Assembly (NCBI GenBank): GCA_002869335.1
Contig: PKTE01000267.1
Location: forward strand, 1-34,947
DNA length: 34,947 nucleotides
Reading direction: 5' to 3'
Source of the DNA: Salinivirgaceae bacterium
Lineage (GTDB): Bacteria; Bacteroidota; Bacteroidia; Bacteroidales; Salinivirgaceae
Shown here: piece after piece, positions 3,941 to 16,554 of the stretch
Layout of the letters: every line of letters starts with the position of its first letter
Position numbering within the stretch: position 1 is the first letter of the stretch
Notes under the pieces: generated by a model
What the model saw: only the letters and a program-made list of their open reading frames with translations
Databases searched by the model: none
What the model was told of the DNA's origin: nothing
Program-made: the position numbers and the translations under genes

Positions 3941-6211
3941 TTAGAAAAGTTCTACTTCAATTTTCTGGATAAATGCTGTGTATGTATGGACTTTATCCAC
4001 TGTTGCATCAGATAGCAACATTAGAACCTGAACATTGTCCCCGTCTTTTGTTGAGATACTTATTTCTCTACGTTCTCCAACAAATTTATCGGAATTGGTT
4101 GTAACGAATTTATTAACAAATTCATCATTTTCAATAATATCCGGATTGAAAAGCATTTTCACGTTTTGGCCAACTACGTCTTTACGCTCAAAACCCCATA
4201 ATTCTTCTGCCGCTTTATTGAAAAATTCAATCTTTCCGTTTTGGTCAGTTGTTAAAATTGCATCCAAAGCACCTTCAAGTGTCTTTTCATGTCTGATTTT
4301 GCTTTTCTCTACTTCTTTAAAATGCTGGCGAAGTTCTTTTTTGGCAGCATCAAGTCTTTTTTGAAGTTCAACTTCAGAATTCTTAAGTTCTTCTTCTTGC
4401 TGTTTAAGTGTGCGGTTTTGTTCGCTAATTTTTATCTCAAGCTCTTTTTGGTCTGTTATATCCAATGCAAGGACCAGAATCTTATCTACTTCGCCATACA
4501 TATTGTTTACAGCCATAAAGGTCATTTGGAACCATTTGATTTTTTTATCTTTAATGGTAACGCTTAGCTGTCCTTGATATGGCATGCCATTAACGACATT
4601 ATTCCATAATTCATCAAAATCAGTTTGGTCATTGTCAGTAAAGAAATCAAAGATACTTGTCTCTTTTACTTCGTCCATAGTATATCCTACTGCTTCAACG
4701 AATTTTGTATTACATGTAATAAATTTACCAGATGGAGCATATTCAGCTTTTATGTTTGCCAGGTTAAGAGCTCTAATTTGACCTTCATAATCCATTGATT
4801 GCTTTTTGTGTTCTGTTGTATCAATGGCCAGGAATAAAATTTTCTCAACTCCACCAGATTCATTACGAACACAAGTATAAGTCGCCATGGTCCAAAGGTC
4901 TTTCCCTTTTTTGGTAACATGTTTCATGTAACCTTCAAAGTGATGTCCTCCGCGCGAGAGCTCATTCCAAATATCATTAAACCACTCTTTGTCTTTTTCA
5001 TTGATAAACATTGAAATATGATGGCCTTCAACTTCTGAGTTGTTTTCGTAATCGAGTTTGCGCAAAAACTTTGAGTTGGCATATAATAATATTCCGTTTA
5101 CATCGTATTCTGCTCTAATAAGTGTGTGGTTAACAGAATTTGTAAAGCTGATAAATTCTTTTGATTGTTTGGCTGCTTCTTCCTGAGTTGCTTGAAGCTC
5201 TTCCATATTTTGTCGCATTTCTTCTTCTTGTTGCGACAGTCTCTCAGCCTGTTCCTGACTATCTTTTAGTAGCTTAGCTGTTTTGATGTTGATTTTAACA
5301 TTGCTAATGGTTGAGCCAATGTTTTCTGCAATTTTTTCAACGAAGTCAATTTTAAATTTTTCGAATTGTTCAAAACTCGAGAGTTCAATAACACCATGAA
5401 CCTCTTCATTGAATTTAAGCGGAACAATAAGTAAAACAGAAGGATTAGCTTCTCCCAAACCTGAAGTTATATCCACGTAGTCTTGAGGTACTTCATCTAT
5501 ATATAGTGTTTTCTGCTCAAAGGCTGATCTTCCTACCAGGCCTTCTCCCCATTCAAGTCTTTTTTCATTATATTTTTGCCTGTTGTAGGCAAAATGAGCT
5601 GTTAGTTGGAAATGAATATCAGATTCATCAGAATCATCTAGTAAATAAAATCCACCTTGAACAGCATCTGTATATTTACAAAGCTTGCTAATTATCTCGA
5701 AAGATAGTTTGTTGATATCATCATTGTTTTGTCGCAAGATGTCACCAAATTTAGCTAGCCCTTCTGCAACCCAGTGTCTCTGATTATCCTCCTTTTTTCG
5801 GGTTTCTTCTTCTTCTTTTTGTTTTTTTAGGCTGTCTCGTAAACCAAGAAGCTTGCGAATTATTTTATTATTATCCTGGTCCTCTTCAAAGTCAACATTT
5901 CCTTCACTCAAATAAGTAGCAATATCGTTAACTTTACTGTATTGAGTTTTGGTATTATTAATTTCACTTTTAAGTGAATTGATTTTGGTTTCAAAGAATT
6001 TGCCAGCAAACCAGCCAAATAGTGGTAGAATAATCCATAAACTATCTATTAAATAGAGGGCAATATTATTGTGAAGGTCAATAAAATTTTTCCAGTTAAA
6101 ACTGATATGTTGCCCATTTAGTAAACCCTTGATTATAAAGAAGTGTAGTAGGGCAGCAGTTATTATTCCTGCAAATAGAAATGTGATGCTTAGTTTATTA
6201 TTTTTCCCCAT
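3941..6211 (-). CDS. Membrane sensor with HAMP-like, GAF and three PAS domains, no output domain
   Basis: 756 residues from the ATG at 6211 (MGKNNKLS). An in-frame ATG at 6253 would add 14 residues (MIIYKQPCSR...) that look non-native, and the predicted promoter box at 6251-6258 lies between the two, so 6211 is preferred. Order: membrane segment (about 8-31), short loop, membrane segment (about 50-71), HAMP-like linker (about 95-130), GAF (about 150-306), coiled coil, PAS (about 355-470), PAS (about 478-595), coiled coil, PAS (about 645-750). No kinase, cyclase, EAL or methyl-accepting signalling domain is present. It is the last gene of the che locus, so it may feed CheA or be a partner of the His-less kinase-like protein; that is inference. 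The C-terminus is VELF, similar to the CheZ-like protein's LELF. Confidence 0.85.
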   Translation of the reverse strand: MGKNNKLSITFLFAGIITAALLHFFIIKGLLNGQHISFNWKNFIDLHNNIALYLIDSLWIILPLFGWFAGKFFETKINSLKSEINNTKTQYSKVNDIATYLSEGNVDFEEDQDNNKIIRKLLGLRDSLKKQKEEEETRKKEDNQRHWVAEGLAKFGDILRQNNDDINKLSFEIISKLCKYTDAVQGGFYLLDDSDESDIHFQLTAHFAYNRQKYNEKRLEWGEGLVGRSAFEQKTLYIDEVPQDYVDITSGLGEANPSVLLIVPLKFNEEVHGVIELSSFEQFEKFKIDFVEKIAENIGSTISNVKINIKTAKLLKDSQEQAERLSQQEEEMRQNMEELQATQEEAAKQSKEFISFTNSVNHTLIRAEYDVNGILLYANSKFLRKLDYENNSEVEGHHISMFINEKDKEWFNDIWNELSRGGHHFEGYMKHVTKKGKDLWTMATYTCVRNESGGVEKILFLAIDTTEHKKQSMDYEGQIRALNLANIKAEYAPSGKFITCNTKFVEAVGYTMDEVKETSIFDFFTDNDQTDFDELWNNVVNGMPYQGQLSVTIKDKKIKWFQMTFMAVNNMYGEVDKILVLALDITDQKELEIKISEQNRTLKQQEEELKNSEVELQKRLDAAKKELRQHFKEVEKSKIRHEKTLEGALDAILTTDQNGKIEFFNKAAEELWGFERKDVVGQNVKMLFNPDIIENDEFVNKFVTTNSDKFVGERREISISTKDGDNVQVLMLLSDATVDKVHTYTAFIQKIEVELF

Positions 6212-6250
6212 GAGATTACATTTTCGCGAACATGGTTGTTTATAAATTAT

Positions 6251-6283
6251 CAAATATATTATTTTTTGAGTTATTTACAGCAA
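6251..6283 (-). promoter_or_regulatory. Candidate Bacteroidota promoter for the GAF/PAS sensor gene
   Basis: Minus-strand -7 element TATATTTG (6258-6251) fits TAnnTTTG. A TTG at 6283-6281 sits about 22 bases upstream as a possible -33 element. It is located between cheB and the sensor, which are 165 bases apart, so the sensor could be transcribed on its own. Confidence 0.4.
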
Positions 6284-6376: not shown

Positions 6377-7465
6377 TTATCTTTTGTGTTTATTTACAAA
6401 CCCTGCGATTTGATTAAGTGGTAAAATATGTTGTGCTGCTCCTCTCTCAATAGCTTCCTTAGGCATACCGAATACCACACAAGATTTTTCATCCTGAGCA
6501 ACTGTAATTGCACCAGACTCTTTCATTTCTAATAGCCCTTGCGCTCCATCATCTCCCATACCTGTCATGAGAATGCCAATTGCATTTTTACCAACATATT
6601 GTGATGTTGATCTAAAAAGAACATCAACACTTGGTCTATGTCTGTTTACTAAAGGTCCGTTATTGATTGTAACATAGTATCTTGCACCTGATCTTTTCAC
6701 TAATAAATGATGATTACCCGGGGCTATTAAAGCACGGCCTCGTATAATAGTATCATTTTCAGAAGCTTCTTTAACGGATATTTGGCAAAGTTCGTCTAAT
6801 CTTTCTGCAAATGAGCGTGTAAAATGTTCCGGCATATGTTGTACAATTACAATTCCCGGACTATCAGGTGGAAGTGCCATTAAAAACTCTCTCAAAGCTT
6901 CGGTTCCTCCTGTTGAAGCTCCAACCGCCACTACCAAATCAGTTGTTTCTATCATAGCTTTTGATCTGCGTGGTTGAAGCACAGCATCGGCAGAAAGTTT
7001 TGGGGCCACTTGTTGAATAGATGCTGCAGGTCTTATTTTTTGTACTTTTTTTCTTGTAACTCTTGCTTTTGCAGCACCTTTAATGGCATCTGTTATGCGC
7101 ATGCTAGATTCCTGAAAGAACTGTTTGGTGCTCATATTAGGCTTGGTAATTATATCTACAGCTCCGTATTCAAGTGCTTTTATAGCAGTTTCAGTTCCTT
7201 TGGCAGTTAATGATGAGATAATTATAACCGGAATAGGATGTTGGGTCATAATTTTACGCAGAAAAGTGAGTCCATCCATGCGAGGCATCTCTACATCAAG
7301 TGTTATTACATCAGGAATTTCCTTTTGTATTCTTTTTGCGGCATAGTATGGGTCAGAGGCTGTTGCTATAACTTCAATGTGACTATCTGCGTTTAGTATT
7401 TCAGCAATAGTTTGTCGAACTACAGCAGAATCGTCAACTACTAATACTCGTATCGGTTTTGCCAT
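6377..7465 (-). CDS. cheB: Chemotaxis response regulator protein-glutamate methylesterase CheB
   Basis: 362 residues. An N-terminal receiver (about 5-125) has the acidic pair D11/D12, phospho-acceptor D57 in LDVEMP, and K108. A linker of about 45 residues leads to the C-terminal methylesterase/glutamine deamidase domain with the catalytic Ser184 (GASTGG), His210 (VQHMP) and Asp306 ([10 protein letters not shown]), matching the E. coli CheB triad by motif. It removes methyl groups that CheR adds to chemoreceptors and gives adaptation feedback when CheA phosphorylates it. Length and motifs are complete. The gene sits 53 bases after cheD. Its substrates must be encoded elsewhere, because no methyl-accepting receptor is in this window. 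Confidence 0.96.
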
Positions 7466-7518: not shown

Positions 7519-7992
7519 TTACATTTGTTGCTTATTTATATATTTCATTTTAACACTTCCTGTAAAGGTGTCAAATTGAATTTTTCGACCTAATTTTCCT
7601 CCTGTACTTTCACCATTAATGGGAATATTAAGTTCTTTTAGCATTTTATGAGCCACTTCTATATTTCTGAGACCAATATTAAAATAGTGGTGTTGTGATT
7701 CTATTACTTCTCCTCCTCCAAATACTTTGGCTATTACATTGTGTTTTTTTGCACCATTTTTTAAAATATTTTCAAGTAATTTTTCAATGGCAATATTCCC
7801 ATATTTTGGTGATGCAAGACCTTCTCCGTTCCATAGTGGTAACATAAAATGGTTCATACCTCCAATTTTTGCAATAGGATCATACATACAAATAGCAACA
7901 CATGAACCTAAAAGTGTATTGATAAGGTAATGTTCCTGTGGTGCGTACAGATTTGCCGGATATAGATAGTATATAGGTAATTCCTGGTTCAT
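7519..7992 (-). CDS. cheD: Chemoreceptor glutamine deamidase CheD
   Basis: 157 residues, usual family length. The expected catalytic trio is visible: Cys31 in LLGSCVAIC, His48 in GGMNHFMLP, and a Thr in the GGKLGRKIQFDTFTG segment near residues 131-145. CheD deamidates specific receptor glutamines and, in several bacteria, interacts with CheC-type phosphatases. No CheC is present here; the phosphatase candidate of this locus is the CheZ-like protein at 14818-16554. The start is 3 bases after the stop of the kinase-like gene and cheB follows, so cheD and cheB look like a receptor-modification pair within the operon. Confidence 0.95.
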   Translation of the reverse strand: MNQELPIYYLYPANLYAPQEHYLINTLLGSCVAICMYDPIAKIGGMNHFMLPLWNGEGLASPKYGNIAIEKLLENILKNGAKKHNVIAKVFGGGEVIESQHHYFNIGLRNIEVAHKMLKELNIPINGESTGGKLGRKIQFDTFTGSVKMKYINKQQM

Positions 7993-7995
7993 TGT

Positions 7996-8907
7996 TTAAA
8001 ATTCTTCATCAGAATCTTCGAAAAATATTTGATTTCCATCATCAGAAAAACCTTCTAAATAACTTGTTTCTTCTGGTCTTGGAAGATATATTGTGAAAAC
8101 TGCTCCTTTTTTTGGTTCGCTATCAACAGTAATACGGCCCTCTAGTGATTCTACATACGATTTGGTAACTGAAAGTCCTAAACCATACCCCTCATTAAGG
8201 GAGTGTATTGTACTTTCTCCCTTTACAAACCGGTCAAATAGCTTTTCCTGTTCGTTTTTATTAATACCTACACCATAGTCCCTTACCATTATTTTCAATT
8301 CATCTTTTTCATTTATTTCTGATGAGATTTCAATCTTTTCGGCGGCATTACTGTATTTAATACTATTATTAAGAAGATTAGACATCATTAGCTTAAGTTT
8401 CTCAGAATCAGTTGGGAATTCATGCGGCGATGTCGATTTGTTTTTTGATTTATATTTAAATTGAATCTTAAGTTCTTTTTGTTGAGCTTTATACCTATAG
8501 CTTTCAATTATGCTCTCGATTAATGAATGAATATTAACTATTGCTAATTCAGGTTGTGCCAATCCTGCTTCAATTTTAGCTGCGGCAAAAATATTTTTAA
8601 GTTGAAAATCTAAGTTGAATGCCTCTGAGTGAATAAGCTGGGCAAGAGGGCGTATTTTTTCATATTCATCAATTTTTAGGCTGGTAATACTTTGGCTTAA
8701 CCCAAGAATTGACGCAAATGGATTAACGATTTCATTGGTGACATTGGATAGAAAATGACTTTTAAGTGATTCACTTTCTTTAAGTTTTTCGTTAACTTTT
8801 CTAAGCTGCTCTGACTTTTGCTTTAGCTCAGTTAATGCCTTTTTGTTCTGTTCAAATCGAATTTTTAATTCGTTGAGCAAGTCTTCGTCGGTTATTCTTT
8901 TGTTCAT
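7996..8907 (-). CDS. Histidine kinase-like protein lacking the phospho-acceptor His
   Basis: 303 residues, no membrane segment. An N-terminal coiled coil (about 5-50) leads into a HisKA-like helix reading FLSNVTNEIVNPFASILG (52-69). The canonical form is SHEIRTP, and here the His position is Asn58 (codon AAT, 8734-8736). The ATPase domain looks intact: N-box LMMSNLLNNSIKYS, DYGVGI, LFDRF and GYGLGLS. The C-terminus is an acidic tail ending EDSDEEF. It may bind ATP and act as an allosteric or scaffolding pseudokinase, or phosphorylate a different residue. It sits between a lone receiver and cheD, 3 bases before the latter. The DNA here is clear; the functional reading is inference. Confidence 0.88.
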   Translation of the reverse strand: MNKRITDEDLLNELKIRFEQNKKALTELKQKSEQLRKVNEKLKESESLKSHFLSNVTNEIVNPFASILGLSQSITSLKIDEYEKIRPLAQLIHSEAFNLDFQLKNIFAAAKIEAGLAQPELAIVNIHSLIESIIESYRYKAQQKELKIQFKYKSKNKSTSPHEFPTDSEKLKLMMSNLLNNSIKYSNAAEKIEISSEINEKDELKIMVRDYGVGINKNEQEKLFDRFVKGESTIHSLNEGYGLGLSVTKSYVESLEGRITVDSEPKKGAVFTIYLPRPEETSYLEGFSDDGNQIFFEDSDEEF

Positions 8908-8951: not shown

Positions 8952-9332
8952 TTAAATGAATCTATTGTCAGTAAGTTCATTTAGTTTTTCAAGCAAATCA
9001 TCTTTATCGAAAGGCTTGGCAAGGGTTGCATGTGCACCCAGGTTACTTGCCATTTCAAGGTATTGTTCACTTCCAGTTGATCCACCTCCACTAATAGCTA
9101 ATATTTTTATTCCCGGGTATTTTTGAATTATTTCAATAATACTTTCTAATCCTTCTTTTTCAGGCATAATGATGTCGGTAATTACAAGGTGTATTGGTTC
9201 TTGTTTTAGTAATTCAAGACCTTGATCGCCATTACCGGCTTCAAATATATTTACTGGGTAATCTATGAGAATATCTTTTATTAATTCTCTTAAAAAAATG
9301 TCGTCGTCAATGATTAAAATATTTGTAAGCAT
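8952..9332 (-). CDS. Single-domain response regulator (CheY-like)
   Basis: 126 residues, one receiver domain and nothing else. Acidic residues D9-D11 (IIDDD), phospho-acceptor D53 in VITDIIMP, Ser80 in LAISGGG as the switch Ser/Thr, and Lys105 in LAKPFDK complete the phosphorylation site. It lies 9 bases after cheR and 44 bases before the His-less kinase-like gene, which suggests it partners with CheA or with that protein. It is clearly distinct from the CheY at 14117-14482. It could be an alternative output regulator or a phosphate sink. Confidence 0.9.
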   Translation of the reverse strand: MLTNILIIDDDIFLRELIKDILIDYPVNIFEAGNGDQGLELLKQEPIHLVITDIIMPEKEGLESIIEIIQKYPGIKILAISGGGSTGSEQYLEMASNLGAHATLAKPFDKDDLLEKLNELTDNRFI

Positions 9333-9341
9333 TTAGTTGAT

Positions 9342-10187
9342 TTAAAAGGTTTTTCGGAAAATTGTGGGTTTTATATTTTCTAAAGGCACTTTCATATTTG
9401 TAATTGATTCAGAGTGTCCTAATATAAAGTATCCACCTGGTTTAAGGTGATCACAAAGTCTATTAATAACTTTTTCTTGTGTGTCGCGTTCGAAATAAAT
9501 TAATGTGTTTCTACAAAAAATAAGATCAAATCCTTTGGGCGCATTATATACAGTATCCATTAAATTTAAACGGAAAAATTTAACCTTTGTTCGAAGGTGG
9601 GGCTTAACTCTAACTAGTTTTTTTTGTGGATCTTTGCTTTTTAGAAAATATTTCTTTTTAAGTGATTCTGGAATGGGAATAATTTTCTCTAATTTGTAGA
9701 CGCCATTAACGGCGTTTTTTAACATATCTGTTGATATATCTGCTCCCAGTATTTGATAATTTATATGTCCGTGTTTTTGAATATACTCTTCCATAACCAT
9801 TGTAATGGTATATGCTTCTTCACCACTTGAACTACCAGCGCTCCATATTTTCATCTCACTTTGTTTATTGGCATAGATTTCAGGGAGTATTACTTCCTCC
9901 ATAAATTCAAAATGTGTGGGTTCTCTGAAGAAATCAGTTTTATTTGTAGAAACCACATCCATCATGTGGATAATCTCTTGCTCGCCTTCTTTACTGAATA
10001 CAAAGTCAATGTAAGATTTGAAATTAGTTATATTTAAATGCCTTAATCTTTTTTGCAGCCTACTTTGCAACATCACTTTTTTTGCAGGAGGCATTTTAAT
10101 ACCGTAATTGGTGAAAATATAATTACTTAACTTATCAAATTCTGATTGCTTAAGTTCTATATTATTAAATGCTAAATTTTTCTCCAT
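9342..10187 (-). CDS. cheR: Chemoreceptor methyltransferase CheR
   Basis: 281 residues, full family length. The N-terminal helical domain (about 10-80) ends in the conserved VVSTNKTDFFREPTHF (78-93). The Rossmann-fold catalytic domain has the SAM loop WSAGSSSGEEAY (115-126), LGADIST (147-153), FCRNTLIYF (224-232) and GHSESI (257-262). It uses SAM to methylate receptor glutamates. The start is 3 bases after the porin stop, so translation is probably coupled to that gene. The matching receptors are not in this window. Confidence 0.95.
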   Translation of the reverse strand: MEKNLAFNNIELKQSEFDKLSNYIFTNYGIKMPPAKKVMLQSRLQKRLRHLNITNFKSYIDFVFSKEGEQEIIHMMDVVSTNKTDFFREPTHFEFMEEVILPEIYANKQSEMKIWSAGSSSGEEAYTITMVMEEYIQKHGHINYQILGADISTDMLKNAVNGVYKLEKIIPIPESLKKKYFLKSKDPQKKLVRVKPHLRTKVKFFRLNLMDTVYNAPKGFDLIFCRNTLIYFERDTQEKVINRLCDHLKPGGYFILGHSESITNMKVPLENIKPTIFRKTF

Positions 10188-12080: not shown

Positions 12081-14117
12081 TTATCCTCCTATATTATCTT
12101 TTGTTGCAAATTCATTAATTATTCTGTTTGGATCTATTACAAGGGCTACTGTTCCATCACCTAAAATTGTAGCACCAGAGATAATATCTACATCGCTGAA
12201 CATTCTGCCTAAAGGTTTAAGCACAGCCTGATATTCCCCAATTATTTCGTCAACTGTCAAACCCATGAAAGAATCCTGGTACTCAACATTGACAATTCGT
12301 TCAATTTTTGGTGGTTCTCCTTCAATTTTTAATACATCTCTTAAGTAGATGAATGGAACTCTCTGTTCATCAGCTAAGAACAGGTTGTTTATAGTTTCTT
12401 CTATTTCCTGATGTGTAAATTCATATATTTTTTGAACTGCTGATAACGGAATTACAAATTTTGTATCGGCAATTCTTACAAGCAATCCATCAATAATTGA
12501 TAATGTAAGTGGAAGTTTAATGGTTACAGTTGTGCCAATTCCAAGTTCACTTGAAATTTCTACCTCTCCACGCAATTCTGCAATTTTTTGCTTAACCACA
12601 TCCATTCCAACTCCTCGGCCGGAGAGTTTAGTTACTTGCTTTGCAGTACTAAAGCCAGATGTGAATACAAGATCGTAAATTTCATTTTCTGTTAGCTCTG
12701 TATCAGCACTAATGATTTCTTTCTCAATTGCCTTTTTGCGAATAGCTTCGGGATCTAGACCTTTTCCATCATCAATAATTTGAATGTAAACGAAGGTACC
12801 AGAATAGAAAGAGTTCATTGTAATGGAACCTTTAGGAGCTTTACCTTTTTTGATACGTTCCTCTTTCGAATTTTCAATTCCATGATCGAGACTGTTTCTG
12901 ATAATATGCATTACAGGGTCAACTAACATCTCGATTATGTTTTTATCAAGCTCGGTTTCAGTTCCTTTTGTAATAAAGTCAACCTCTTTACCTAAATCAT
13001 TTGATAATTCACGAACAAGTCTTTGAAAGCGAGTTACCATGTTAGCAATAGGAATAAGGCGAATACTGAAAACATCATCTCTCAATCTACGTGAGATTTT
13101 CTCAATTTCTTCAGCAATTGGATTTAAACCTTCATAAGTGTTCTCTTTGGCATAAAGGGTAAGCTGAGCTTGTATTGTAACCAGTTCACTAACCCAGTTG
13201 ATAAGGTTATCCAGCTTATCTGAGCTTACTCGGATACTGGAAATGCTGTGATCAATTTTTTTAATTGAGTCGCTGGCAGCTTCTTTCTTTTCTTTTTCCT
13301 GAAATACACCTTCAAGGTCAATGATAAGCTCTTGAATTTCAGCCGGTTTTATTTCTGGTTTTTGCTTAAGAGAATCCTTGAGGATGTTTTTAATTGCACT
13401 ATCTCCAAGTAAATTATATTCTGATATTTTGTGAGTTTCAATTTTTGCTTCGTCATCAACAAAAATAAATACATCTATAATTGAGTTGATACCTGCATTT
13501 GTACTAAGAATAATATTCCAACTAGTATAGGTTTTAGTAGGATCAAGTTTATCAAAGTCAGGAATATTGTTGAGGATTGGAGCTATTAAAATTGTTCCCA
13601 GTTCAGCTAGGTCTTCTAGAAGGAAAAGTGGATTAGTTCCATTTTTCATTATATCCTCATTGGGGACAAATCTTATAAAATAAGTTTTTGTTTTTCCTTC
13701 AACCGGCTCATCATGTAATGATGTATGCTCTGGAGCTTGCTTTTCATTGAGCGCGTTTTCTATTCTTTCAATAAATTTATTGTTATTGACTTCAAGGGTT
13801 GTTTCATTTTCGGGTGTTTCGTTTAATAGGCTGCGTAAATGATCAACGGCTTCAAAAGTCAGGTCCAGAATATCCTTGGAAACTTTAAGTTCTTTGTTTC
13901 TAACCCGATCATAAATGTTTTCAAGAATATGAGTGAACTTATCAATTTTCTCGAACCCAAACATGGCGCTGCCTCCTTTAAGGGAGTGCATAACCCTGAA
14001 AATAGATTCAATGGTAGCCATATCATCCTGATTCTGGTCTAGTTGCACAAGGGCCTGTTCCAGCTCGTTAATCTGTTCCGTAGCTTCTTCTACGAATTTC
14101 TGTTTAAATGCTTCCAT
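12081..14117 (-). CDS. cheA: Chemotaxis histidine kinase CheA
   Basis: 678 residues with all five CheA regions. P1 has the phospho-acceptor His44 in RVMHSLKGGSAMFGF. A P2-like regulator-binding domain is at about 145-235. P3 dimerisation helices begin near SSIRVSSDKLDNLINWVSEL (about 293-312). The P4 ATPase has the N-box HIIRNSLDHGIE (404-415), DDGKGLD (449-455) and SGRGVGMDVV (499-508). P5, the CheW-like domain, runs from about 540 to the end. It autophosphorylates on His44 and passes phosphate to CheY and CheB. The ATG overlaps the cheY stop by one base (TAATG), so the two are translationally coupled; cheW follows after 3 bases. Confidence 0.97.
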   Translation of the reverse strand: MEAFKQKFVEEATEQINELEQALVQLDQNQDDMATIESIFRVMHSLKGGSAMFGFEKIDKFTHILENIYDRVRNKELKVSKDILDLTFEAVDHLRSLLNETPENETTLEVNNNKFIERIENALNEKQAPEHTSLHDEPVEGKTKTYFIRFVPNEDIMKNGTNPLFLLEDLAELGTILIAPILNNIPDFDKLDPTKTYTSWNIILSTNAGINSIIDVFIFVDDEAKIETHKISEYNLLGDSAIKNILKDSLKQKPEIKPAEIQELIIDLEGVFQEKEKKEAASDSIKKIDHSISSIRVSSDKLDNLINWVSELVTIQAQLTLYAKENTYEGLNPIAEEIEKISRRLRDDVFSIRLIPIANMVTRFQRLVRELSNDLGKEVDFITKGTETELDKNIIEMLVDPVMHIIRNSLDHGIENSKEERIKKGKAPKGSITMNSFYSGTFVYIQIIDDGKGLDPEAIRKKAIEKEIISADTELTENEIYDLVFTSGFSTAKQVTKLSGRGVGMDVVKQKIAELRGEVEISSELGIGTTVTIKLPLTLSIIDGLLVRIADTKFVIPLSAVQKIYEFTHQEIEETINNLFLADEQRVPFIYLRDVLKIEGEPPKIERIVNVEYQDSFMGLTVDEIIGEYQAVLKPLGRMFSDVDIISGATILGDGTVALVIDPNRIINEFATKDNIGG
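12085..12090 (-). promoter_or_regulatory. Strong Shine-Dalgarno sequence for cheW
   Basis: AGGAGG on the minus strand, 7 bases before the cheW ATG, lies inside the last Gly-Gly codons of cheA. Shine-Dalgarno sequences are uncommon in Bacteroidota, so this may be chance from GGA GGA codons, but the spacing is ideal. Confidence 0.45.
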
Positions 14118-14482
14118 TATCTTACAACTTTATTAATTGCAGCCAATAATTTCTCAGGCACAAAAGGTTTCACTATCCAACCAGTAGCTCCGGCATCTTT
14201 AGCTTCTTTCTTTTTAGCGGTCTGCGATTCAGTAGTCAGAAACAAGATGGGAATAAATTTGTATGCTTCTAATTTTCTGACTTCTCTAATTAGCTCAATA
14301 CCATTCTTATTGGGCATGTGAAGGTCGGTTATAATCAAATCGTAAGGTTTACCATCGAGGTATGTAAGTGCGTCGTCTCCGTCAACGGCTTTTTGGACTT
14401 CATGTCCGGCATTTTCAAGTGTAAAACTTACTACTTCGCGTATGCTTTCTGAGTCATCGACAATGAGTATTTTCTTTCCCAT
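14117..14482 (-). CDS. cheY: Chemotaxis response regulator CheY
   Basis: 121 residues, one receiver domain. The acidic pair is D9/D10, phospho-acceptor D53 is in IITDLHMPNKNG, the switch threonines are T83/T84 in LFLTTES, and K105 is in IVKPF. An aromatic (W102) is near the position of the E. coli CheY switch Tyr106. It is immediately upstream of and coupled to cheA, so it is the most likely diffusible output of this pathway. With no flagellar genes here, its target is unknown and may be gliding machinery or another effector. Confidence 0.93.
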   Translation of the reverse strand: MGKKILIVDDSESIREVVSFTLENAGHEVQKAVDGDDALTYLDGKPYDLIITDLHMPNKNGIELIREVRKLEAYKFIPILFLTTESQTAKKKEAKDAGATGWIVKPFVPEKLLAAINKVVR

Positions 14483-14494
14483 TTTTGGTCGTTT

Positions 14495-14806
14495 TTATGT
14501 TGTTGCTATTTGTATTTCGTTTATTGTTTCTAAAATTACGCTTTTTTTAGTAGCATCCAATGGTGCTTTTAACGTGATTTTTTGATTTTCTTCAAGTTTA
14601 GACTTTTTTAAGCTAATTAACATTTGTATAAATGCTAAGTCTGGTTCTGTGTCTTTTGGTAGCTTGAAAATTATATTTTCTCTGTCAAATTTAGTTGACT
14701 TAAGCTTGTTGAAAATATCTCTAATGTACTGGACAGTAGTTTGCTGATTGATTGTTACTGTCAAGTCTTTTTTTGTCCGTTTTATAGTTATTGCTTGTTT
14801 AGTCAT
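14495..14806 (-). CDS. STAS-domain-like protein
   Basis: 103 residues. The alternating strand-helix pattern (DLTVTINQQTTVQYIRDIF, IIFKLPKDTEPDLAFIQML, QKITLKAPLDATKKSVILET) fits a STAS fold of the SpoIIAA/MlaB type. The usual phosphorylated Ser in the DSSG loop is absent: the loop reads DTEPDLAF, so regulation by phosphorylation as in SpoIIAA is unlikely. Small STAS proteins occur in some che operons beside cheY and cheA. It is 12 bases upstream of cheY and 11 bases after the CheZ-like gene. Fold assignment is by pattern and moderately secure; function is unknown. Confidence 0.65.
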   Translation of the reverse strand: MTKQAITIKRTKKDLTVTINQQTTVQYIRDIFNKLKSTKFDRENIIFKLPKDTEPDLAFIQMLISLKKSKLEENQKITLKAPLDATKKSVILETINEIQIATT

Positions 14807-14817
14807 GCTACTATCTT

Positions 14818-16554
14818 TTAAAACAATTCCAGGTTATCATCATCTTCTTCCTCGGCATCATTGCTAGTGTGTTCATGAATATCTCTTTGCGACTGCATTG
14901 TATATGCAGCTTTCATTGAGGTCAAAAGGTCATTTTGTATTTCTCCTTCTTCTGAAATAGGGAGTATTTTCTTGTATACGCTATTCAATTGATTAATGAT
15001 TTCTTCCACCTGATGCTCATAAAAATCATAATACTTGATGTTCCCCAAAGTGTTTTTTAGTTCACTGTCAAATGTTTTATATGATTTGCAATTGTGCTTG
15101 ATTTTATCATTAATTTGATTGAATTCTTCAAATAAAGGATGGAGATCATTGGTTTCTATAGCGTTGTTTTCTAGTATGCTAAGATGCTTATCAATATCTA
15201 TAATCAGCTGGATTAAGTGGTTATTCTTATGTGAATTAATTATTTTACCAATATTACTTCGAGATTCAATAATATCATTTTGTAATGAAATTAATTTGTT
15301 TGCAATTGTTTTGATATCTGATTCGTCAACTAAATGCTCATTAATTTTATTAATTATAGTGCTAATATCGGTCTCTATTTGTTCAAGTTTTTTGTAATGT
15401 TGATCGTGCAGTTTTATAGATTCTTGAAGAGTTTTATTACTATCAAGTAATTCGGCGATGCTTTTTGAGAAATCGAATATTTTTTTATTTACTGCTTCTG
15501 TTGTTTTTCCAAGCGAATCAGTTGTGAAATTACTGTCTTCTAATTTGAATATACTGTAGGATAGGTTATTCACATCTTCCATAGTGTTTGAAGTATCCAG
15601 TAATTTTTTCGATATATTTTCGATGGCTCCTTGATATTCTTTGTTGGTCAATATAAGCTGGCCTGCTTGAATTTCAGTAATTCCGGGAATTTGCTTGATG
15701 TATTTTAGCCCTTGTTGGATTATATTTTCTTGCTTTTCAAGTGTATTCAACTCCTCAAGAATATTTTTGTGAGTATCTTGAATATGCTCTATTTTTTGTC
15801 TTATTATATCGTGGTATTGAAGGTTAGTAATGATTTGGTTAAGATTTTGAAATCCTTCCTGGTTTTTTTGCTCAACTTGCGACTTTATGCTTTTTGAGTT
15901 TCTAATTCCTTTTTCAATGAAAGAAATTTGCTTGTTTAGTAGGTCAATGTCTTCATACAGATCCATTTCAATTAGACGGCGTGCAGATGTTGCTTTATCA
16001 ATGGCATTGCTGTAGTTATTTTTGAGGCTATCAACATCTTTTGCAATGATAGGTATTTCAACCTGTATTTGCTCAATTTTAGCTGTTAAGTCTTCAATCA
16101 GTTTTTTTGTTTCAATGTGAGCTTTTTTACCTATGAGTCCTTGATTTAACTTTAGATTTGTTAATAAAAACTTTAGAGTAGAAATGTTTTGTTTAAAATT
16201 TAATATTGGTATAAAGATATGTTTGAAATCGTGATTTAATCTGCTGGCTTGAGTTGTGTATTCCGATATGTTGTGCTTTGATAATTTTACTGATGTTTTT
16301 AATGCATCATTAGCATTCCTGAGTTTTTGTAATGCCTTATTATCTTTTAATGACTCAACTCGTTCTATTAATTCGGCAGTGCTTCTTCCTATTTCATGTG
16401 TAGTTTTATGATGATCTTTCATTATTTTATTTAATGCAGAAAAATCATCGTTACTAACATGTGTTAGCTCTAAAACTTTTTGATCAATCGATGAAAAGCT
16501 AGTGACAATCTCATTTATAAGTTGTTGTATTTCTTTAGAACTGATTTTTTTCAT
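14818..16554 (-). CDS. Large coiled-coil protein with duplicated CheZ-like motif (candidate CheY-P phosphatase)
   Basis: 578 residues, almost entirely helical, no membrane segment, no methyl-accepting signalling hairpin. At 244-257 it reads NLQYHDIIRQKIEH. The D249xxxQ253 spacing equals the catalytic Asp/Gln pair of CheZ (D143/Q147 in DLTGQ). A second copy at 505-518 reads NIKYYDFYEHQVEE, aligning D510 but placing His514 where the Gln should be. The two motifs are 261 residues apart, so the protein looks like a tandem duplication with one active and one altered unit. The C-terminus is a flexible acidic tail ending EEEDDDNLELF, resembling CheZ's CheY-docking tail (DDLLDSLGF). It is the first gene of the che unit. 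A receptor-like or scaffold role is the alternative. Confidence 0.6.
   Translation of the reverse strand: MKKISSKEIQQLINEIVTSFSSIDQKVLELTHVSNDDFSALNKIMKDHHKTTHEIGRSTAELIERVESLKDNKALQKLRNANDALKTSVKLSKHNISEYTTQASRLNHDFKHIFIPILNFKQNISTLKFLLTNLKLNQGLIGKKAHIETKKLIEDLTAKIEQIQVEIPIIAKDVDSLKNNYSNAIDKATSARRLIEMDLYEDIDLLNKQISFIEKGIRNSKSIKSQVEQKNQEGFQNLNQIITNLQYHDIIRQKIEHIQDTHKNILEELNTLEKQENIIQQGLKYIKQIPGITEIQAGQLILTNKEYQGAIENISKKLLDTSNTMEDVNNLSYSIFKLEDSNFTTDSLGKTTEAVNKKIFDFSKSIAELLDSNKTLQESIKLHDQHYKKLEQIETDISTIINKINEHLVDESDIKTIANKLISLQNDIIESRSNIGKIINSHKNNHLIQLIIDIDKHLSILENNAIETNDLHPLFEEFNQINDKIKHNCKSYKTFDSELKNTLGNIKYYDFYEHQVEEIINQLNSVYKKILPISEEGEIQNDLLTSMKAAYTMQSQRDIHEHTSNDAEEEDDDNLELF

Follow-up and report, generated by a model that had tools for sequence, protein, structure and literature searches.

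The locus examined here raises the question of what a protein with the architecture of a histidine kinase may do in a chemotaxis cluster when asparagine occupies the place of its phospho-acceptor histidine. The window (the whole stretch of DNA that was analysed, 34,947 nucleotides from a Salinivirgaceae bacterium) carries the gene for this protein, here called KIN, on its minus strand, within a che cluster that encodes a helical protein, a 103-aa protein, CheY, CheA, CheW, an outer-membrane-like protein, CheR, the lone receiver REC1, KIN, CheD, CheB, and a GAF/PAS protein. Coordinates are given in Table 1.

Table 1. KIN, its key residues, and the neighbouring che genes in the window
Feature	Position	Strand	Basis or remark
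KIN: His-less HisKA/HATPase protein, 303 aa	7996..8907	(-)	ORF, Pfam, orthologue alignment
Codon 58, AAT (Asn), phospho-acceptor position	8734..8736	(-)	Asn in 89/89 covered KIN sequences
Codon 62 (Asn), at His+4, where HisKA proteins have their phosphatase residue	8722..8724	(-)	Invariant, 89/89; excerpts of PMC3510030
Acidic tail, residues 291-303, ends ...FFEDSDEEF	7999..8037	(-)	
cheD, proposed KIN partner	7519..7992	(-)	Begins 3 nt past KIN stop
Lone receiver REC1, possible extra substrate, mostly confined to window's family	8952..9332	(-)	Pfam, neighbour comparison
CheY, proposed main substrate when phosphorylated (putative role)	14117..14482	(-)	
CheA, intact P1 His motif (HSLKGGSAMFGF), cluster's real kinase	12081..14117	(-)	
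cheR, usual upstream neighbour of KIN elsewhere	9342..10187	(-)	
cheB	6377..7465	(-)	

The histidine-less motif of KIN

KIN consists of an N-terminal helical stretch, a DHp-like region, an HATPase_c domain, and an acidic tail. Pfam accepts the HATPase_c domain (1e-25) and places HisKA below threshold (1.8e-4; 21.9 bits against a cut-off of 26.9). The same scan recognised no sensor domain, no CheC (PF04509) or CheX (PF13690) domain, and no Hpt (P1), H-kinase_dim, or CheW-like domain, the last three of which are all found in the CheA of the cluster. In NCBIfam 83 kinase families match KIN, and none of the best 25 of these 83 exceeds its cut-off.

The sequence SNVTNEIVNPF in KIN replaces the SHEIRTP of HisKA kinases. 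In alignment with HK853 chains, in a match covering residues 37-278, the KIN segment SHFLSNVTNEIVNPF pairs with the HK853 H-box IANISHELRTPL, which sets Asn58 against the acceptor His, Glu59 against His+1, Val61 against the Arg at His+3, Asn62 against the Thr at His+4, and Pro63 against Pro. The earlier note had read an asparagine at the acceptor position together with intact ATP-binding boxes, and both readings hold for the window: codon 58 is AAT (8736-8734), and the N box (Asn177, Asn181), the G1 box (DYGVG), and the G2 box (GYGLGL) are all intact. An AlphaFold2 model from three rows (the window KIN, its near relative L031 from a Salinivirgaceae MAG, isolate GH44, and the segment of the window's own HisKA kinase) is of low confidence (mean pLDDT 44.9); its order of helices and strands agrees with a DHp plus ATP domain, and nothing further is drawn from it.

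Conservation across Bacteroidales

KIN was sought in two draws of genomes. Among 149 relatives, 41 genomes (that of the window included) hold a match at 1e-40 or better, and a second sample, of 393 genomes from the order, contained 87 with KIN; together the draws yield 90 KIN sequences from 88 Bacteroidales genomes, 89 of which cover the motif site, the 90th (L292) being cut off before it. A phylum-wide search at 1e-38 returned the window genome alone (1 of 395); since this threshold would miss very distant members, the order-specificity of KIN rests also on 13 KIN-less outgroup loci (L176-L183, L185-L189), in which, wherever cheR and cheD could both be identified, no kinase separates them. 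In L182 and L189, which belong to one family outside the order, cheR, cheD, and cheB are contiguous and KIN's place is empty. A related-locus search of genome contigs returned four loci only, one of them L031.

All 89 covered KIN sequences, the window's included, have Asn at position 58; the check for orthologues with His at this position, proposed in the earlier note, was run and found none (0/89). Asn58 is also present in the KIN of G002, a closed single-contig genome. With the window set aside, the codon is AAT in 46 and AAC in 42 of the 88 covered loci, so it is the residue, not the base, that is conserved. A diverged family had been weighed against a single C-to-A change in the window; the family stands, and the point change is not borne out. 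Asn62 and Pro63 are likewise invariant (89/89 each), Glu59 is kept in 88 sequences (Gln in L064), and position 61, the His+3 position, is Ile in 52, Val in 35, Leu in 1, and Tyr in 1, never Arg or Lys. The earlier note had described neither the invariant Asn at His+4, nor the lack of any basic residue at His+3, nor the acidic tail with its -ExF ending.

Conservation is uneven along the protein. In the two DHp helices the commonest residue has a mean frequency of 0.80, and 23 of 60 positions reach at least 95%; in the ATP domain the mean is 0.55, with 13 of 155 positions at that level. The N and G2 boxes are conserved in nearly all KIN sequences and G1 in 81/89, being damaged in eight sequences from four families (Asp210 to Asn in seven, Gly214 to Asp in L062), all eight of which keep Asn58 and Asn62. 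The function that KIN proteins have in common therefore probably does not require ATP. The nonsynonymous divergence of KIN, 0.125 against G001 (a genome of the same genus as the window) and 0.186 against G002, lies within the range of its che neighbours, synonymous sites being saturated or nearly so in both comparisons.

Ordinary kinases were represented by 29 non-KIN kinases of G002, taken from 65 matches. All 29 have the acceptor His and Arg or Lys at His+3, with Thr (26) or Asn (3) at His+4. In a tree of 21 KIN sequences and these 29 kinases KIN forms one clade (support 100/99), and with midpoint rooting its neighbours are three G002 kinases of the H-D-L-[KR]-N-P-F type; as these already carry Asn at His+4, Asn62 may be an ancestral feature and not the product of new selection. 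A His-to-Asn precedent reportedly exists in NtrB/NRII (H139N) and is not used as evidence here.

One heptad before Asn58, codon 51 of the window KIN (8755-8757) encodes His, where the ordinary kinases of G002 mostly have Ala. As a substitute acceptor His51 was rejected: it is His in 79/89 sequences but Asn in 10/89, so it cannot be a general acceptor.

KIN is a conserved order-level family of che-linked, histidine-less HisKA proteins, a variant of the histidine pseudokinases; the open-access literature searched yielded no description of it.

Linkage to cheD and the known CheY~P phosphatases

In the sample of 149 genomes, CheA occurs in 44 and CheD in 46, and all 41 KIN genomes have both, while KIN is found in none of the 105 genomes that lack CheA. 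Within the order, CheA occurs without a KIN match at 1e-40 in three genomes (G047, G109, and G122), and CheD occurs without KIN in five (G017, G047, G055, G090, and G103). The CheD proteins of these five are only 27-37% identical, and neither cheR nor full-length cheB was detected beside them.

The gene directly downstream of KIN is cheD in 85 of 89 loci (window not counted). Three of the other four end within 8 nt, and the fourth, L069, has 2292 nt of room. The gap between KIN and cheD is 20 nt or less in 70 of the 78 loci where it could be measured, with a median of 9. Directly upstream stands cheR in 71/89 loci, a REC1 relative in six (five loci of family f1 and L260), other genes in five, and no match in seven, at contig ends. 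In L052, from genome G062, the KIN-cheD pair is retained while cheR and cheB went undetected within the 17.5-kb stretch. Three loci (L049, L068, and L072) carry a receiver-kinase-receiver hybrid with an intact SHEIRTP between cheR and KIN.

These neighbourhoods support the earlier suggestion of a che-linked regulator, and the tie to CheD is their strongest signal. The lone receiver next to KIN, also suggested as a partner, is weakened by how seldom its relatives adjoin KIN. As for the GAF/PAS sensor, it recurs near KIN in 22/89 loci, some loci being too short to show it. In the window (3941-6253, minus strand) this protein has a GAF and three PAS domains and, in the Pfam scan, no kinase or MCP signalling domain; it resembles a sensor without obvious output.

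Known CheY~P phosphatases are scarce alongside KIN: CheC and CheZ occur in 0/41 KIN genomes each, and CheX in one (G040). Five of 33 CheD-bearing outgroup genomes, all KIN-less, supply the contrast, which is confounded by phylogeny: CheX is found in two, CheZ in two, and both in one. In G397 and G409 one cheX is part of the che cluster, flanked by cheD and cheB. In Bacillus subtilis, the CheY~P phosphatase CheC binds CheD, and does so more tightly at high levels of CheY~P (excerpts of PMC3513319). The position of KIN beside cheD and the lack of CheC fit a CheC-like role, whether as CheY~P phosphatase, as reader, or as both.

The window also encodes a helical protein of 578 aa (14818-16554, minus strand), which ends in -ELF and has no Pfam match. 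Its motif QYHDIIRQKIEH (DxxxQ; D-I-I-[RK]-Q) keeps D, I, I, and Q in 16/16 relatives. The protein is present in 15 of the first 40 loci, many stretches being too short or not reaching its position, and a relative occurs in the KIN-less outgroup locus L189. The DxxxQ spacing is that of CheZ-type phosphatases, so the helical protein could be a CheY~P phosphatase, and on this motif it is a possible CheZ-like candidate. A NarX-type DxxxQ has also been described (excerpts of PMC3510030).

The 103-aa protein beside CheY (14495-14806, minus strand) has no Pfam or NCBIfam match, and tblastn detects relatives in a few neighbours only. By its sequence pattern it looks STAS-like.

Proposed function and alternatives

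We propose, at roughly even odds, that KIN acts in the manner of CheC, removing the phosphate from CheY~P and partnering CheD; its catalysis, its substrate, its binding of CheD, and the role of its tail are what we infer. KIN would be a core, order-specific part of Bacteroidales chemotaxis, presumably free of autophosphorylation on the usual site through the change of His to Asn and of the basic His+3 to Ile or Val. The KIN dimer would dock CheY~P on its DHp helices, and in Salinivirgaceae perhaps REC1~P too; Asn62 would position a water for hydrolysis of the aspartyl phosphate, and the ATP domain, where intact, may tune the conformation of KIN. The acidic -ExF tail would dock KIN to another Che protein, and partnership with CheD would couple the level of CheY~P to receptor modification, as CheC-CheD does in B. 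subtilis.

The catalytic part of this proposal draws on Myxococcus CrdS, as reported in excerpts of PMC3510030. The acceptor His, the acid at His+1, and the basic residue at His+3 contribute to the kinase activity of CrdS, the last being required for this activity to be full, and the Asn at His+4 serves phosphatase activity alone. The phosphorylated regulator has a half-life of 53.5 min on its own and of 2.6 min with CrdS H371A, which thus remains a good phosphatase; with the His+4 variant N375A, which is not one, it is 47.6 min, and N375T is partly active. Relative to CrdS, KIN has lost the acceptor His and the basic His+3 and has kept the His+1 acid and the His+4 Asn. In HK853, according to excerpts of PMC7005713, the acceptor His aids the phosphatase step by positioning water.

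Several points speak against this proposal. Glu59, a kinase-only residue in CrdS, is kept in 88/89 sequences, where a pure phosphatase would have no obvious need of it; the helical DxxxQ protein of the cluster could itself be the CheY~P phosphatase; and in B. subtilis the phosphatase activity of CheC matters less than CheD binding (excerpts of PMC3513319). The possible inheritance of Asn62, the confounded CheX/CheZ contrast, the three CheA genomes without a KIN match, and the example of DivL (below) count against it as well.

The tail has a consistent ending. Of the 86 KIN C-termini that are complete, 81 have Phe as the last residue and 72 finish in [DE]xF. The [DE]xF ending is shared by the GAF/PAS protein (21/22 near KIN, mostly IEVELF or ISVDLF) and the helical protein (14/15), but not by CheA (0/33), CheW (0/38), CheY (0/25), CheR (0/77), or CheB (0/76), and by CheD in a single case (1/84). 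As the -ExF tail is common to KIN, the GAF/PAS protein, and the helical protein, KIN may dock at the same or a similar site; CheR, CheB, and CheD are candidate readers. The MCP-type pentapeptide for CheR/CheB has the consensus x-[aromatic]-x-x-[aromatic] at the C-terminus, and KIN does not match it ([FYWH]xxF in 1/86 tails). Such a pentapeptide has been described with Trp at position 2 and Phe at position 5 (PMC7390727). Of the chemoreceptors of five genomes (30 of 35 matches; L075-L104), 15/30 have a flexible linker followed by a terminal [FY]xxF pentapeptide (FENF, for example), pointing to a putative pentapeptide-dependent CheR or CheB in this group. Another possibility for the KIN tail, by analogy, is regulator binding of the kind seen in streptococcal WalK, whose acidic, Trp-bearing tail helps to bind its regulator (excerpts of PMC9087282).

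The main rival, which we consider unlikely, is that KIN acts as a reader like DivL, binding CheY~P through its DHp without hydrolysis and relaying its state, for example by holding or releasing CheD. DivL, a histidine-less HisKA protein, binds DivK~P and is described in excerpts of PMC4211667 as having neither kinase nor phosphatase activity; the conservation of DHp above the ATP domain and the linkage to cheD fit such a reader equally well. Pure binding would not need the invariant Asn at His+4, however, and almost all KIN genomes lack a known CheY phosphatase.

It is improbable that KIN is a trans-acting kinase whose ATP domain phosphorylates the His of a heterodimer partner or the P1 domain of CheA, as in R. 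sphaeroides CheA4/CheA3. Most KIN sequences do have intact ATP boxes and the kinase residue Glu59, and the hybrid between cheR and KIN in three loci bears a histidine; yet the DHp motif stays invariant where G1 is damaged, CheA has its own P1 His motif in 22 of 24 loci inspected (two fragments did not show it), and no kinase neighbour of KIN recurs across the order. Of similarly low probability is the version in the earlier note, in which KIN, gated by ATP, would regulate CheA, CheD, or the receiver allosterically and without phosphatase action. The boxes kept in most sequences and the cheD linkage would suit it, but damaged G1 is tolerated in four families and, of the two halves of KIN, the ATP domain is conserved less well, which makes ATP gating doubtful as a general mechanism. 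Sequencing error, a single mutation, or a decaying pseudogene, for which the fragmented window assembly (364 contigs) might have spoken, is refuted by the universal Asn58, its two codons, the closed genome, and constraint similar to that on the adjoining che genes.

Returning to the phosphatase, its fullest form, in which a HisKA core has turned into a dedicated CheY~P phosphatase across one order, partners CheD, replaces CheC/CheX/CheZ, and docks through an -ExF tail common to at least three cluster proteins, is a tentative suggestion that leans toward being wrong. If it is true, kinase and phosphatase functions of the commonest bacterial histidine kinase fold have been split by evolution in one order, and nature offers a test of which residues each of them needs. 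The missing off-switch of Bacteroidales chemotaxis clusters would then be identified, and an unrelated protein would be seen to re-create the adaptation link between CheC and CheD.

Among known systems, the HisKA kinases (PF00512/PF02518; HK853, CrdS, NtrB) share with KIN the DHp and HATPase domains, Glu at His+1, Asn at His+4, the Pro, and the ATP boxes; KIN differs in having no acceptor His (0/89), no basic His+3, no recognised sensor domain, and an acidic -ExF tail. DivL of Caulobacter likewise has a HisKA core that lacks the acceptor His, with Tyr in its place (excerpts of PMC4211667), whereas KIN has Asn, is short, has no recognised sensor domain, and adjoins cheD in a che cluster. The W-acidic tail of S. 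mutans WalK resembles that of KIN in that it lies at the C-terminus, is acidic and disordered, and includes an aromatic residue (excerpts of PMC9087282), but the KIN tail is -ExF rather than Trp-based, and WalK is a working kinase. In R. sphaeroides, the chemotaxis kinase protein CheA3 carries a phosphatase domain specific for CheY6 (excerpts of PMC2829493); it has P1 and P5 domains, whereas KIN is a HisKA-HATPase protein without the acceptor. CheC and CheX share the role proposed for KIN, that of a CheY~P phosphatase working with CheD, and CheX sits in the cheD-cheB interval of two outgroup clusters, but they belong to a different protein family.
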